From assembly GCF_001183545.1 (NCBI RefSeq), contig NZ_KQ236688.1, forward strand, positions 1,145,149 through 1,209,148: 64,000 bases of DNA, written 5' to 3'. The notes under the pieces are model-generated. The model searched no databases and had not been told where the DNA came from. It saw only the letters and a list, made by a program, of their open reading frames with translations. A program made the translations under genes and the position numbers. The DNA is from Cellvibrio sp. pealriver (GTDB lineage Bacteria > Pseudomonadota > Gammaproteobacteria > Pseudomonadales > Cellvibrionaceae). Positions 12,487 to 33,442 of this stretch are shown in pieces. Each line of letters opens with the position of its first letter. Within the stretch, counting starts at the first letter, position 1.

Positions 12487-12963
12487 TTAAGCCTTGGCGA
12501 CAGTATAGGACGAGGAGTATTGGGTTTTTGCACCTTGCGCATTATAAAGTGATGGTGCAGTGCCTTTGCCGCGCAAAAGCCCCAGCAGATGATTCACTGT
12601 TTGTTGGGTGCGTCCAACCAGTTTGCCGTTAATGTCATTCATTTTTTGGCAATCTTCAAATTCACTGATGACCAGTTTCCATTCATCGCGCAAGGATAGT
12701 GTTGCGGCGTTGCGTTGCAGAAATAAATCCCAGCCGTTGGCATTGGTAGGTAATCCAAGCGTGTTCAATATTTGTTGGCGTTGTTTGGCATTGGTATTGA
12801 GCTGATCAACAAGCACAATTTTTTGGTCAACAATCTGCTGCAGTTCATTCAATTTGCGTTGTTCGAGCAGGTTGCGTTCATCCACAAGTAATTGTTTGAG
12901 TTGTGAAACAGCAGCGGCATCCTGCGCAATCATCTGGCGCAGTGCATTGATATCGAGAGACAT
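12487..12963 (-). CDS. flgN: flagellar export chaperone FlgN
   Basis: A 158-residue, helix-rich cytoplasmic protein of the FlgN family, the chaperone for hook-associated proteins FlgK and FlgL. Seen: a mostly alpha-helical coiled-coil pattern (QLKQLLVDERNLLEQRKLNELQQ) and the typical C-terminal half before a low-complexity tail. The start MSLDINALRQM at 12963 has GAGG six bases upstream; an upstream codon would overlap the spacer after flgM. It is last in the order flgA-flgM-flgN on this strand, as in Pseudomonas, and is probably co-transcribed with flgM from the sigma-28 site at 13521-13547. Confidence 0.88.
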   Translation of the reverse strand: MSLDINALRQMIAQDAAAVSQLKQLLVDERNLLEQRKLNELQQIVDQKIVLVDQLNTNAKQRQQILNTLGLPTNANGWDLFLQRNAATLSLRDEWKLVISEFEDCQKMNDINGKLVGRTQQTVNHLLGLLRGKGTAPSLYNAQGAKTQYSSSYTVAKA

Positions 12964-13094
12964 AGCAACCTCTTCATTTTGTGATGGTACAAATTTGCGG
13001 GTGCAAATTGGGTGGCGCAAAACCGGTGGAGACAGATAAGAAAAGCGTCGGGGATACGCTTTTTTCAAGTGCCTTCGCCGCTACTCCGGGCGTG

Positions 13095-13409
13095 TTAGCC
13101 CAGCAGATCCTCTTGGTTGAGCATATTTTCAGCAATGCGCTCAGGATTAATTTCAAAACGACCTTCAGCAATGGCGCGTCTGATTTCGGCAACCTTATCC
13201 ATATCGACATCGGGTGCGCTGTTGATTTTGGTTTGCAGGCGACCCAGGTTTTGGGCTTCCTGACTCAGTACAACCTGATCACTCGCGCTGGGCGCAGCAG
13301 GAGTAGGGCTGGAAGCTTGGGTTTTTGCTTCTGGTGCCGGAGCTGCGGGCTTGCTGCGAGCACCTTTGGTGCCGACAGAATCCAGATTGTTGTTGGTGTT
13401 AAGGTTCAT
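13095..13409 (-). CDS. flgM: anti-sigma-28 factor FlgM
   Basis: A 104-residue FlgM. It binds FliA (sigma-28) and blocks late flagellar transcription until it is exported through the finished hook-basal body. Seen: a disordered N terminus rich in N, A, P and S, and the conserved C-terminal sigma-binding region KVAEIRRAIAEGRFEINPERIAENML. AGGGG precedes the ATG. A near-consensus sigma-28 promoter lies 112 bases upstream, so FlgM is made under control of the factor it inhibits, as in other gammaproteobacteria. flgN follows at 131 bases. Confidence 0.93.
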   Translation of the reverse strand: MNLNTNNNLDSVGTKGARSKPAAPAPEAKTQASSPTPAAPSASDQVVLSQEAQNLGRLQTKINSAPDVDMDKVAEIRRAIAEGRFEINPERIAENMLNQEDLLG

Positions 13410-13520: not shown

Positions 13521-13547
13521 TTATCGACCAAACCCTGCCTAACTTTA
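13521..13547 (-). promoter_or_regulatory. sigma-28 promoter for flgM-flgN
   Basis: On the minus strand: TAAA, exactly 15 bases, then GTCGATAA. One base differs from the consensus TAAA-N15-GCCGATAA. The same -10 variant appears before fliC1 (31188-31214), which supports it as the local form. Confidence 0.85.
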
Positions 13548-13581: not shown

Positions 13582-14340
13582 TTAAAACGTCCGCACAGTC
13601 CCTTGGCTAACCACGATACCGCTGATAATCCGCTCGGATGAGTTATTACGGACTCTGATCTTTTGTCCCACACGGCCATCTGCCATGGCAGTACCGGCGC
13701 TACTGACTTTGATACTGCCAGCGAGTGACTCCAGGCTCACAAGTTCACCGCGTTTGACAACTGTTGGAGCATCCAGAAGCGCCGTTTTGAAGGGTTCACC
13801 CTGGCTGATATTGCGCTTGGCTTGTTTACCAATAATGTCGTCAGTTGTTACCAAAAATGCTTGTCTGATACTGCTGATATTGACGAGGTGTGTAGCTACG
13901 TGGCTTTGATTAATTAATTCGCCACGGGCGATGCTGCCTTGTGCAACCGGTATTTCCCGGTAGATGCTCACTTGTGCCGGTATATGAACCGACCATTTTT
14001 TGCCGCTTTCGCATTCCGCTTTGACACTGATGTTGCCGCCATTGCCGGTACTATCCTGAAGGGTGAAGGCAGGTGTGGATTCACATCGGGCGAGGCGCAA
14101 GCGGTTATCGAGATTACTTACATTGATATCAATGCGTTCATGTGGAGTAGTTGAGTAGGTTTTCGCAAGGAATTGGGCAACATCTTGTTTCAGTTGATGC
14201 AGTGGATAAACGGGTGCCGCAGCGAGATTAATCGAGTAGAAAGACAAAATGACCCATGCGGCAATTGTGCCGTGGGTCTGGCGCGAAACGCTTCGTAACA
14301 AAGTTCGATAAAAACTTCTATAAAAACTAGGAAGTTCCAT
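13582..14340 (-). CDS. flgA: flagellar P-ring assembly chaperone FlgA
   Basis: A 252-residue periplasmic protein that helps FlgI assemble into the P ring. Seen: a basic N terminus with a hydrophobic signal segment AAWVILSFYSINLAAAP, then the SAF-like domain with VPVAQGSIARGELI and the C-terminal GQKIRVRNNSSERIISGIV typical of FlgA. The ATG at 14340 is preferred; an in-frame TTG at 14358 overlaps the likely ribosome site AGGA. It is divergent from cheV. A sigma-54 site at 14444-14459 faces it, so flgA is likely a middle-class gene separate from the sigma-28-driven flgMN. Confidence 0.9.
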   Translation of the reverse strand: MELPSFYRSFYRTLLRSVSRQTHGTIAAWVILSFYSINLAAAPVYPLHQLKQDVAQFLAKTYSTTPHERIDINVSNLDNRLRLARCESTPAFTLQDSTGNGGNISVKAECESGKKWSVHIPAQVSIYREIPVAQGSIARGELINQSHVATHLVNISSIRQAFLVTTDDIIGKQAKRNISQGEPFKTALLDAPTVVKRGELVSLESLAGSIKVSSAGTAMADGRVGQKIRVRNNSSERIISGIVVSQGTVRTF

Positions 14341-14397
14341 ATTTTGTCCTATCCTCAAGGGTAAGAACCGGGTGTCAGATTGAAAACAAAGAGTGAC

Positions 14398-14424
14398 TAA
14401 AGTCTGACGCTTTTTTGCCGCTAA
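14398..14424 (+). promoter_or_regulatory. sigma-28 promoter for cheV-cheR
   Basis: TAAA, exactly 15 bases, then GCCGCTAA: one mismatch to GCCGATAA. The predicted transcript start is near 14431, about 90 bases before cheV. It faces the sigma-54 site of flgA, whose predicted start is two bases away. Confidence 0.8.
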
Positions 14425-14443
14425 ACTGCTTTACAGGTATCAA

Positions 14444-14459
14444 AGCAAATAGTGTGCCG
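14444..14459 (-). promoter_or_regulatory. sigma-54 promoter for flgA
   Basis: The minus strand reads CGGCAC-ACTAT-TTGCT. The GG at -24, the GC at -12 and their spacing are all correct, with one mismatch to TGGCAC-N5-TTGCW. The predicted start is near 14433, directed towards flgA. Confidence 0.75.
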
Positions 14460-14520: not shown

Positions 14521-15477
14521 ATGGCTGGTGTAATGGATAGCGTCAATCAGCGCACGCAGCTGGTTGGGCAAAACCGTCTTGAATTGTTGTTGTTCCGGTT
14601 AGGTGGGCAACAGTTATACGGTATTAACGTCTTTAAAGTGAAAGAGGTATTACAGTGCCCGCAGCTTAATGCGATCCCGGGGCGCAGTTCGGTTGTGCGC
14701 GGTGTTGCGCACATCCGCGGCGGCACTCTGCCAATCATGGATATGAACCTTGCTATCGGCCGGCGTGAACTGCCGGATATCGAGAGCTGCTTTGTGATCA
14801 TTACTGAATATAACCGTACCGCTCAGGGGTTTTTGGTGCGTTCGGTAGAGCGTATCGTCAATATGAATTGGGGCGATATTCACCCGCCGCCCAAAGGTGC
14901 CGGTAAAGAACACTATCTGACTGCTGTTACCCAAGTGGATGGGCAGTTAGTGGAAATTATTGATGTTGAGAAAATCCTTGCCGAAGTTGCTCCGCCACGC
15001 GAAGAGGTGAGCGCGGGTGTGATTGAAGATGGCATTGCTGACCGGGTTGTGCAGAAACATGTCCTGATCATCGATGACTCCACTATTGCGCGCAAACAAA
15101 TCCAGCGTGTGGTAGAGGGGATGGGCATTAAAACAACGCTCAAGAAAGACGGCGCCGAAGGTTTTAAATATCTGCAGGACTTGCTGAAGGATGGCAAAGA
15201 TCCCTATGCCGAATTGGTGATGATTATCTGTGATATCGAAATGCCGGAAATGGATGGCTATACCTTTACGGCAGAGGTGCGCAATCATCCGGATTTGAAA
15301 AAGCTGCATATCATTCTGCATACCTCCCTCAGTGGTGTATTCAATGAGGCGATGGTGCGCAAAGTGGGTGCCGATGATTTCCTGGCAAAATTCCATCCGG
15401 ATGAGCTAGCCAAGCGCGTCAATGATCGTGTGTTGGCAATTACCGGTGAAAGCCTTTTACCGCCGGAAGAAGCGTGA
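14521..15477 (+). CDS. cheV: chemotaxis coupling protein CheV (CheW-receiver)
   Basis: A 318-residue protein with a CheW-like coupling domain (about 20-170: LLFRLGGQQLYGINVFKVKEVL, GVAHIRGGTLPIMDM) and a C-terminal receiver (about 180-310). The receiver has acidic IIDDS, phospho-acceptor Asp238 in CDIEMPEMDGY, and a Lys in FLAKFHPDEL. CheV links receptors to CheA and tunes adaptation. The start at 14521 has GAGGT upstream; the frame stays open further upstream but there it overlaps the promoter region. It is followed 54 bases later by cheR, a conserved pair in pseudomonads beside flgA/flgB. Confidence 0.94.
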   Translation: MAGVMDSVNQRTQLVGQNRLELLLFRLGGQQLYGINVFKVKEVLQCPQLNAIPGRSSVVRGVAHIRGGTLPIMDMNLAIGRRELPDIESCFVIITEYNRTAQGFLVRSVERIVNMNWGDIHPPPKGAGKEHYLTAVTQVDGQLVEIIDVEKILAEVAPPREEVSAGVIEDGIADRVVQKHVLIIDDSTIARKQIQRVVEGMGIKTTLKKDGAEGFKYLQDLLKDGKDPYAELVMIICDIEMPEMDGYTFTAEVRNHPDLKKLHIILHTSLSGVFNEAMVRKVGADDFLAKFHPDELAKRVNDRVLAITGESLLPPEEA

Positions 15478-15531: not shown

Positions 15532-16410
15532 ATGATTAATAAAGAGTCTTCTCCTTTTGGCAAAACTCCAGGGCGTGACAATCTCGACCAAGCAGAGTTT
15601 GACCAATTTCGCCAGTTCCTTGAGGACGCTTGTGGTATTTCGCTCGGTGATAACAAGCAATATTTGGTAACCAACCGCATTCGCCGGATACTGGAAGAAA
15701 ACAATATTGCTTCTTTTGGTGAGCTGGTCAGGGTTTTAAAGCAAGGTTTCAACCGTAAGTTAAAAGATCAGGTGATCGATTCAATGACCACCAATGAAAC
15801 CTTCTGGTTTCGCGATAACTATCCTTACGATCATTTAAAAAATACGCTGCTCCCCCAACTAATGGCGGGTAATAATCGCATGTTTGGTCCAGTGCGTATT
15901 TGGTCTGCAGCCTGTTCGTCTGGCCAGGAGCCTTATTCCATCAGCATGATGGTGGAGGAGTACAAACGTCAGGCGATGGGTAATCTGGCGCGGCAGGTTC
16001 AGGTTGTTGCAACAGATTTGTCAGCGACTGTTCTGGAGCAGGCACGCAGAGGCGAGTACGACAAACTATCGGTTATGCGTGGTTTATCTGCAGATCGTTT
16101 GGAGCGTTACTTTGATAACCCGAATCCCACAACCTGGCGTGTTAAAAGTGTTGTTAAAGAGCGGATTGATTTTCGCTCATTAAATCTGATGGATTCCTAT
16201 GCCGGTTTGGGCAAGTTCGACATAGTGTTTTGCCGCAATGTGTTGATTTACTTCAATGGCGATCTCAAACGTCAGATTCTGCAAAAAATTCACGCCGCGC
16301 TAAAACCTCAAGGGATCCTGTTTCTGGGTTCATCAGAGGGGCTTGCAGGTGCTGCGGATTTGTTTGAAATGGTTCGCTGCGATCCAGGTATTCTTTATAA
16401 AGCGATTTGA
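15532..16410 (+). CDS. cheR: chemotaxis receptor methyltransferase CheR
   Basis: A 292-residue CheR that methylates glutamates of chemoreceptors with S-adenosylmethionine. Seen: the N-terminal helical domain (residues about 20-95) and the catalytic domain with TTNETFWFRDNYPY, the cofactor loop IWSAACSSGQEPYSI, ATDLSATVLEQAR, FDIVFCRNVLIYF and LFLGSSEGL. No C-terminal NWETF-binding extension or TPR region is present. It is in one unit with cheV and ends before a strong terminator, separating chemotaxis genes from flgB. Confidence 0.95.
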   Translation: MINKESSPFGKTPGRDNLDQAEFDQFRQFLEDACGISLGDNKQYLVTNRIRRILEENNIASFGELVRVLKQGFNRKLKDQVIDSMTTNETFWFRDNYPYDHLKNTLLPQLMAGNNRMFGPVRIWSAACSSGQEPYSISMMVEEYKRQAMGNLARQVQVVATDLSATVLEQARRGEYDKLSVMRGLSADRLERYFDNPNPTTWRVKSVVKERIDFRSLNLMDSYAGLGKFDIVFCRNVLIYFNGDLKRQILQKIHAALKPQGILFLGSSEGLAGAADLFEMVRCDPGILYKAI

Positions 16411-31187: not shown

Positions 31188-31214
31188 TAAAGCTCCTTCT
31201 GGATGTGTCGATAA
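31188..31214 (+). promoter_or_regulatory. sigma-28 promoter for fliC1
   Basis: TAAA, exactly 15 bases, then GTCGATAA. One base differs from the consensus, and it is the same variant as at flgM. The predicted start is near 31221, giving an untranslated leader of about 107 bases. Confidence 0.88.
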
Positions 31215-31327: not shown

Positions 31328-33442
31328 ATGGCTTTAGTAATTAACACAAACGTCGCCTCTCTGAATGCTCAACGTCAGTTGATGAGCTCAGGCAACGCGC
31401 TTGACCGCTCCACCGAGCGTTTGTCTTCCGGTATGCGTATTAACTCAGCAAAAGACGACGCTGCCGGCTTGGCAATTGCCAACCGTATGACTTCACAAGT
31501 TCGCGGTCTTGACCAAGCAATCCGTAACGCTAACGACGGTGTATCTCTGATTCAAACCGCTGAAGGTGCGCTGTCAGAATCAACCAACATCCTGCAACGT
31601 ATGCGTGAACTGTCAGTACAGTCCGCAAACGGTATCTATAACGCCAGCGACCGCCAAACACTGAATGCCGAGGTAAAACAACTCGTATCAGAATTGGATC
31701 GTATCGCTAAAACCACCGCGTTCAACGGCCAAAACCTGTTAGATGGCAAGTTGGGTAAAGTAGAGCTGCAAGTCGGTTCAGTGGCTAATCAAACAGTCGA
31801 ATTAAAAGTGCCAGCGATGGATGCCAAAACTCTGGGTATGGGTTCTACCAGTGTGGATTTGATGGGCGGTGCCTCGAATTTTAACAATCTGACCACTGGT
31901 GCTGCGCCTGCGGTAGGTGTGCTCAGAGAAGGCAGTATTTTGATTAATGGCCAGTCAATCATTAAAGGTACTGATTCCTTCAACGGCACTAGCGACACTG
32001 ACCAGGAGTTATTAGACCATATCAATACCAATGTGAATGGTGTAACTGCTTCTACCTATGCTGTAGCAAGTGCGACTGATGCAGGTGACGGTGTTTTACT
32101 GTCAACTGATAAAGTAGTTGTTACCCTGGCTAACCTCGACGGCACTACCACCGCAATTGATATTGGTGGTGGCACCAAAGGCACCAGCAGCTTGGCTGAA
32201 TTGGTTGACAAGATGAATGCCGAAAGCGGTGGTAAATTTACCGCGACTATTGGCGATGATGGCAAATTGTCTATCTCTGCAGAAAACGTGTCTTCTATCA
32301 CCGTAACAGACGCTGCTACTGCGTTGGGAACTGGTATTACCACTGCTGCGAATGCTCGCATCGTCTTAAAGGCAGACAATGGTGATCCTGTTACTGTGAC
32401 CCGTGGCTCTATTGGTACCTTAGCTCAGTTGGATGCACTGGGTTTCCGTGAAAATGATACTGCAGGTGTTGTAGAGGGTTATGCTGCAGGAAATGGCAAC
32501 TTGGCTTCCGGCGATTTAAAGATTAATGGTGTTGATATCCCTGCAACCACAACTGATCAAACTGTGGCGAACCCAGCCTTGGCTGCGAAAGTTGCTGCGA
32601 TCAATTCGGTATCCAGCGAGACCGGTGTGACTGCTACTGCATATACCTCTGCGGTACTGGACTTCAGTGCAATTTCACTGGCGACCTTGGTTGGTGCTGA
32701 TGATATCTCGCTCAATGGTGTTGACATCACGGTTGCTGCTGGTACTGCGACCACAACGATGGCAGATTTGGCCAAAATGTTTAATGACAAGACAGACCAA
32801 ACTGGTATCACCGCTACCGTCAGCGGAACCCGCTTGTTGCTGGAAGGCAACGTATCCCAAATTTCGTTTGGACTGGGCTCTGCTGCTGCAGCAACTGATG
32901 TCAACGCAATTTTCGTTGATGGTGGTGGTAGCTTCGTTAAATTTGGCTATGGAAATACAGCGCCAGCTGATATGACTTCGGCAACTCCTGCTACTGTCAC
33001 TGCAGCAGGCGGTATCAAGCTGACCAGTAATAACGGCAACCCAATTCAGGTTGATGTGAAAGATGCCGCAGCAACTACCAAGACTGGTTTGATTGATTCA
33101 AACGTAAGTGCAGGTGGAGCGTTTGGCGCTGCTATCGCGTCAATCAGCATCGATACCGCTGCGAACGCTCAAAAGGCGATTAAGGTAATCGACAACGCAT
33201 TGACCACCATCAGTGATGTGCGTTCAGAGTTGGGTGCGATCAACAACCGTTTGGACTTCACCATCTCTAACTTGGCGAACATCTCAGAGAAGACTTCATC
33301 AGCACGTTCACGTATCACTGATGCTGACTTCGCTGCAGAAACTGCAAACCTGAGCCGTTCACAAGTGTTGCAACAAGCAGCCTCGGCGATGTTGGCTCAG
33401 TCTAACGCTCGTCCACAACAAGTACTGTCTCTCTTGAGATAA
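31328..33442 (+). CDS. fliC: flagellin 1, enlarged
   Basis: A 704-residue flagellin. The N-terminal D0/D1 (1-165) has [36 protein letters not shown] and [14 protein letters not shown]. The C-terminal D1/D0 (about 610-704) has [37 protein letters not shown] and ends LLR. The variable middle of about 440 residues contains Flagellin_IN-type motifs (ILINGQSI near 202, LKINGVDI near 395, ISLNGVDI near 457). GGAG precedes the ATG. It is transcribed from the sigma-28 site at 31188, and a hairpin separates it from flaG. Ends nearly identical to the second flagellin show they are paralogues. Confidence 0.95.

Follow-up and report, generated by a model that had tools for sequence, protein, structure and literature searches.

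In the gap between flgA and cheV in Cellvibrio, the core of a sigma-28 promoter appears to share bases with an enhancer of the FleQ type, both facing a sigma-54 promoter with a nearly constant helical spacing. The two would form a composite element: since the enhancer of flgA and the core promoter of cheV occupy the same DNA, FleQ with its sigma-54 polymerase and the sigma-28 polymerase would exclude each other. We give this reading a probability of about 0.55. Judged from the arrangement of the sites, flgA and cheV are probably switched on only one at a time in Cellvibrio and its close relatives. Overlapping and mutually exclusive promoters are already known; what would be new is the sharing of a FleQ box and a sigma-28 core promoter.

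Gene order and promoters

The window is the whole stretch of 64,000 nucleotides that was analysed. In the Cellvibrio flagellar region that it contains, flgN (12487-12966; PF05130), the anti-sigma-28 gene flgM (13095-13409; TIGR03824), which lies downstream of flgA, and flgA itself (13582-14340; TIGR03170 and PF13144) are read leftward on the minus strand. Rightward on the plus strand are cheV (14521-15477; CheW and receiver domains according to Pfam), cheR (15532-16410; PF01739) and then basal-body genes. A gap of 180 bp separates the flgA ATG (14340) from the cheV ATG (14521). The closest CheV among the best 80 of 446 named relatives is that of a Cellvibrio sp. (96% identical).

The first-pass annotation placed a sigma-28 promoter on the plus strand of this gap and, facing it, a sigma-54 promoter on the minus strand; both sequences match their consensus. 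The sigma-28 promoter of cheV-cheR, TAAAGTCTGACGCTTTTTTGCCGCTAA, spans 14398-14424 (+), with the -35 from 14398 and the -10 at 14417-14424. It reads TAAA-N15-GCCGCTAA and is near-consensus, matching at 12 of 13 scored positions; at the sequence level it belongs with sigma-28 promoters, having TAAAG-N14-GCCGATAA-like elements and an N15 spacer. The sigma-54 promoter of flgA, CGGCACACTATTTGCT, spans 14459-14444 (-), with the -24 near 14457-14458 and the -12 near 14445-14446. It has the sigma-54 pattern TGGCACG-N4-TTGCW, with GG-N10-GC.

By itself, the pattern TAAA-N14-16-GCCGNTAA shows no enrichment across the genome (33 matches vs 44 for the reversed control). At 12 of 13 positions or better with an N15 spacer, the window holds four sites, and each of them precedes a late flagellar gene (cheV, flgM, a flagellin gene or fliD). 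The separate flgM promoter, TAAAGTTAGGCAGGGTTTGGTCGATAA, lies at 13521-13547 (-) and also scores 12/13; through it, free sigma-28 would feed its own inhibitor too. The flagellin is long (704 aa, 31328-33442, +), has a Flagellin_IN match and is preceded by its strong sigma-28 promoter at 31188.

As a rule of thumb, transcription starts 7 nt past a sigma-28 -10 and 12 nt past the GC of a sigma-54 -12. This promoter geometry predicts starts at 14431 (+/-2, plus strand) for cheV and at 14433 (+/-2, minus strand) for flgA, reproducing the near-coincident starts of the first-pass annotation. As the predicted starts differ by 2 bp, neither core promoter is more than 30 bp downstream of the opposite start, each predicted RNA runs through the opposite gene's promoter, and the two footprints should overlap. 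On geometric grounds the two holoenzymes should be unable to occupy the gap together, as had been claimed.

Conservation and spacing in relatives

Relatives were collected in three ways. The family sample, drawn from 144 genomes, comprises 83 loci with a CheV match of at least 64% identity; a partial match in G251, matches of about 50% (g98 and second copies) and weaker ones were left out. A search at the level of the taxonomic order (116 genomes) gave 49 loci, four of which are within the 83 (one being the window itself); matches of other genomes at E ~1e-99 and weaker were left out. The total is 128 loci, of which 125 have a divergent flgA (L013, L015 and L118 do not). The third set is the best 80 of 446 named relatives, which are mostly Pseudomonas; five of its contigs are common to the other locus set.

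A flgA sigma-54 site scoring at least 8.5 is present in 115 of the 125 loci. Relative to this site, the -10 of the best sigma-28 site (at least 10/13) lies at -29 to -26 in 37 of the 115 loci, at -39/-38 in five, at -49/-48 in three and at -19 in one; the remaining loci have it at scattered offsets or lack such a site. By shuffling, 0.12 loci would be expected between -35 and -24 (115 loci, shared ancestry ignored).

The first-pass annotation had proposed scanning related genomes for both motifs and their spacing. Within the genus the pair is kept in 21 of 21 genomes; the -10 offset is -29 to -26 in 20 of them and -39 in one. Correspondingly, the predicted starts are separated by 1-4 bp in 20 genomes and, with roughly one extra helical turn, by 14 bp in the other, while the distance from the cheV start to its ATG ranges over 81-179 nt. 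Averaged over the 21 genomes, identity to the window is 0.82 for the sigma-28 block, 0.87 for the sigma-54 block and 0.86 for the cheV Shine-Dalgarno region; the remainder of the gap has an identity of 0.37-0.57.

Helical phasing was tested on nine lineages picked by hand, with p 0.0036, a post hoc value that is suggestive only; offsets beyond -60 and L070 (the second g101 member, at -58) were left out. A period of 9.5-10 bp fits better than 10.5 bp. In Marinobacter sp. BGYM27 (L195), facing sigma-28 and sigma-54 promoters with predicted starts 1 bp apart are out of phase (offset -24), and the locus has no FleQ-like box.

A FleQ-like box downstream of the flgA start

Under the sigma-28 promoter lies a FleQ-like box in two registers. 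The outer register, GACTAAAGTCTGAC (14395-14408), is a strict GWC-N8-GWC box over the sigma-28 -35, at offset -49. The inner register, GACGCTTTTTTGCC (14406-14419), lies over the sigma-28 spacer and reaches three bases into the -10; its right half-site is GCC and not GAC or GTC, so that it matches only the relaxed pattern, and its position is that of the strict box in Pseudomonas. The first-pass account of the gap was correct for the promoter pair and incomplete in missing this box, which likely sets the spacing of the promoters and would make the exclusion three-way.

The 14-bp GWC-N8-GWC element emerges when loci are anchored on the sigma-54 site, even where no sigma-28 promoter lies on it. 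To the left of the flgA sigma-54 site, 117 loci contain 42 strict boxes, 19 at -50 to -48 and 18 at -40 to -37; these two clusters hold 37 of the 42, with about 0.07 expected per offset. Outside the loci in which a sigma-28 promoter is superposed on the box, 26 of 73 have an in-phase strict box vs 0.68 expected, and out-of-phase intervals contain no strict box in the same 73 loci; both kinds of interval were set after the clustering had been seen. Among the best 80 of 446 relatives, 41 of 44 named Pseudomonas loci have the box at -39/-40, often as GTCGGAAAAATGTC.

In 51 distinct boxes the middle reads RRAAAAWT; the outer G and C of the half-sites are fixed by the search itself. The flgA box resembles the published FleQ boxes GTCaNTAAAtTGAC and GTCAaAAAAtTGAC, which are quoted in a passage of PMC6120874. 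The genome encodes a FleQ homologue, which has a PF06490 match and whose best solved-structure match is P. aeruginosa FleQ. At the sequence level, then, flgA has what a FleQ enhancer has: a GTC-N8-GAC-like 14-bp box at a fixed and phased place from the sigma-54 site.

Other sigma-54 sites of the genome were compared. A box in the same band is found at fliL (strict, -38) and fliE (relaxed, -49); in the window, flgB and flgF have sigma-54 sites with no strict downstream box, as do flhA and a fleSR-like locus elsewhere in the genome. As a negative control flgB carries little weight, since FleQ activates P. putida PflgB in E. coli as well (passages of PMC5026340). A gene for a ParA-like ATPase (C2:1511134, minus strand, L217) has a sigma-54 site with a strict downstream box at -37; a ParA-family gene is in the FleQ ChIP list shared by two Pseudomonas in the part of PMC6120874 consulted.

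The same source, as far as its passages go, sets the limits of such matches. Matches to the FleQ box abound, with 536 in one Pseudomonas genome of which most are unbound, and the consensus is loose and unsettled, one ChIP-seq study having been unable to derive one. FleQ ChIP-seq in P. fluorescens and P. putida lists flgA and cheV-3 among the targets, at less than base resolution (PMC6120874).

The first-pass annotation treated flgA as a middle gene. This is doubtful; the FleQ-like downstream box and the direct activation by FleQ in P. putida suggest that flgA belongs to the FleQ class. Since the sigma-28 promoter sits on the place of the FleQ-like box, the near-fixed promoter spacing is probably the geometry of FleQ relative to sigma-54.

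Superposition of the sigma-28 promoter on the box

A sigma-28 promoter covers the place of the box in one register in 42 loci. These are the 37 with offsets of -29 to -26, the five at -39/-38 less L024, and the one at -19. L024 was dropped by eye (weak -10, CTT at spacer positions 8-10); L068, L073 and L076 (-49/-48) are not counted. In 38 of the 42 loci (38/43 with L024) the spacer reads GWC at positions 8-10; G is at position 8 in 41 and C at position 10 in all 42. The GCC of the -10 is the next half-site, 11 bp on. In the window's three other strong sigma-28 promoters, spacer positions 8-10 read CTT, ACC and GGC.

A strict box is held by only 11 of the 42 superposed loci, and by 9 of 21 in the genus. 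The usual inner box of these loci ends in GCC, which is also part of the sigma-28 -10; this right half-site may be a compromise between the two elements. Conservation of the outer GAC is weak (10/42). In two g100 loci the -10 lies on the other half-site (-49/-48).

In a FlgA tree of the 83 family loci, 41 of which are carriers, the superposition requires six changes, at least four of them forced by well-supported branches. Most carriers stand together and a few are scattered; gain is indistinguishable from loss. The superposition is absent from 42 of the 83 loci, about half, and is one lineage's solution and no rule.

A nested variant, in which the sigma-28 -10 falls on the sigma-54 -24 (L017, L018 and L208), was rejected as a class, its counts being not clearly above those of shifted controls. 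In these three loci, as also in L182 and L190, the flgA sigma-54 site lies wholly within a sigma-28-like promoter; the CGGC of the -24 is the reverse complement of the GCCG of the -10.

The distribution of the superposition bears on whether the overlap matters. Both promoters may be real and their overlap a harmless economy of no regulatory weight. The sigma-28 promoter could have arisen easily in so small a gap, given that a FleQ half-site with a G after it comes close to GCCG; the 42 family loci that live without superposition are in keeping with this, as are the lineages that place the sigma-28 site elsewhere in the gap. However, the pair is kept in every one of the 21 genus genomes while the remaining gap has diverged, and the spacing stays in helical phase. 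We regard an idle overlap as possible but rather unlikely.

The GWC in the spacer might instead be a site for another protein or a part of the sigma-28 promoter, with the spacing arising from polymerase contact or from ancestry. This would fit the degeneracy of the inner box in most superposed loci and the looseness of the FleQ consensus. An origin in the sigma-28 promoter is at odds with the other strong promoters of the window, which lack GWC, and the element stands at the same place where there is no sigma-28 promoter (26/73 loci; in Pseudomonas 41/44, among the best 80 of 446 relatives). An owner other than FleQ is improbable on these counts. Hardly credible is a third possibility, that the transcripts regulate each other by base pairing, for which only the complementarity suggested in the first-pass annotation speaks: since each predicted RNA runs away from the other, the two have only about 3 nt (14431-14433) in common, which contradicts the proposal unless the true starts lie well upstream.

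Proposed mechanism

In the composite element, FleQ would occupy the box, a short way past the flgA start, and activate the sigma-54 polymerase that faces it. The cheV-cheR sigma-28 promoter of Cellvibrio and close relatives would be written over this FleQ place, so that one half-site falls on its positions 8-10 and the following one on the first three -10 bases. Early, when sigma-28 is held by FlgM, FleQ and the sigma-54 polymerase would be on the DNA and cheV would be blocked. Once FlgM is exported, the sigma-28 polymerase would take the site and cover both the FleQ seat and the flgA -12 region; flgA would then be lowered.

If this model is right, the same DNA serves one sigma factor as enhancer and another as core promoter, and geometry orders two stages of flagellum building. 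The gap would be a small and directly testable case of sigma-factor hand-over. The conserved, phased flgA box could also sharpen the unsettled FleQ consensus, and the loci would form an evolutionary series of box only, box plus promoter, and promoter elsewhere.

A more ambitious version, which we consider speculative and probably wrong, is a double-negative toggle. One stretch would serve as FleQ enhancer, sigma-28 core promoter and site of polymerase competition. FleQ and sigma-54 would drive flgA and read through into flgM, and FlgM would hold sigma-28 off; freed sigma-28 would evict FleQ and lower both flgA and FlgM, with commitment at hook completion. The need for FleQ to face the sigma-54 polymerase would explain why the helical phase is conserved. 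Read-through from flgA into flgM has been suggested for V. cholerae in part of a review, which gives the flgA promoter there as RpoN-independent. Any reliance of the toggle on read-through is weakened by flgM having a sigma-28 promoter of its own.

Comparison with other systems

Jyot et al. (2002) reportedly describe FleQ-activated sigma-54 promoters, with 'atypically downstream' in the title. In P. aeruginosa, FleQ is reported to act from close by at flhA, fliE and fliL (passages of PMC6120874). As at these promoters, the FleQ-like box of Cellvibrio lies just downstream of the sigma-54 start, also at fliL and, in relaxed form, at fliE; unlike at these promoters as described there, the place of the flgA box doubles as an opposing sigma-28 core promoter.

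The gap between flgA and cheV3 of P. putida is similar to that of Cellvibrio. According to passages of PMC5026340, FleQ activates PflgA directly in E. coli, PflgA is partly RpoN-dependent and the opposite PcheV3 is partly FliA-dependent. Loss of fliA raises a PflgA fusion about 2-fold (PMC5026340), in partial agreement with the proposed exclusion; PflgB rises without fliA as well, so general sigma competition is also possible in P. putida. The Pseudomonas loci read differ from Cellvibrio in that the box at -39/-40 has no sigma-28 site scoring at least 10 on it.

At P. putida PbcsD, a FleQ site overlaps a putative sigma-70 promoter, and a block by overlap has been proposed (passages of PMC6424431). 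The likeness to Cellvibrio is that FleQ would block another holoenzyme by overlap. In PbcsD, as described there, FleQ is a repressor only, whereas in Cellvibrio the box should act as an enhancer too, and it is a sigma-28 promoter that would be blocked.

A start map of P. syringae has 103 promoter pairs within 100 bases, 17 of them with overlapping motifs (passages of PMC3247240). The flgA-cheV gap shares with overlapping or divergent promoters that show transcriptional interference a mutually exclusive occupancy set by geometry. It would differ from them in general by the use of two alternative sigma factors of one cascade, by a shared enhancer and by a phase that is conserved across genera. 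In the literature covered (titles, abstracts and passages, with few subscription journals), no sigma-28 promoter on a FleQ box and no account of the flgA-cheV gap in Cellvibrio was found.

Leader sequence of flgA

The flgA leader contains CCTATNCT (AGNATAGG on the flgA strand) at 14348-14355 of the window, and the same sequence occurs in the flgA leaders of relatives. It may be an extended ribosome-binding or leader element. Within 300 nt of cheV it is found in 0 of the 44 named Pseudomonas loci among the best 80 of 446 relatives. Near the flgA start codon it is present in 82 of 125 loci, mostly 6-15 nt away.
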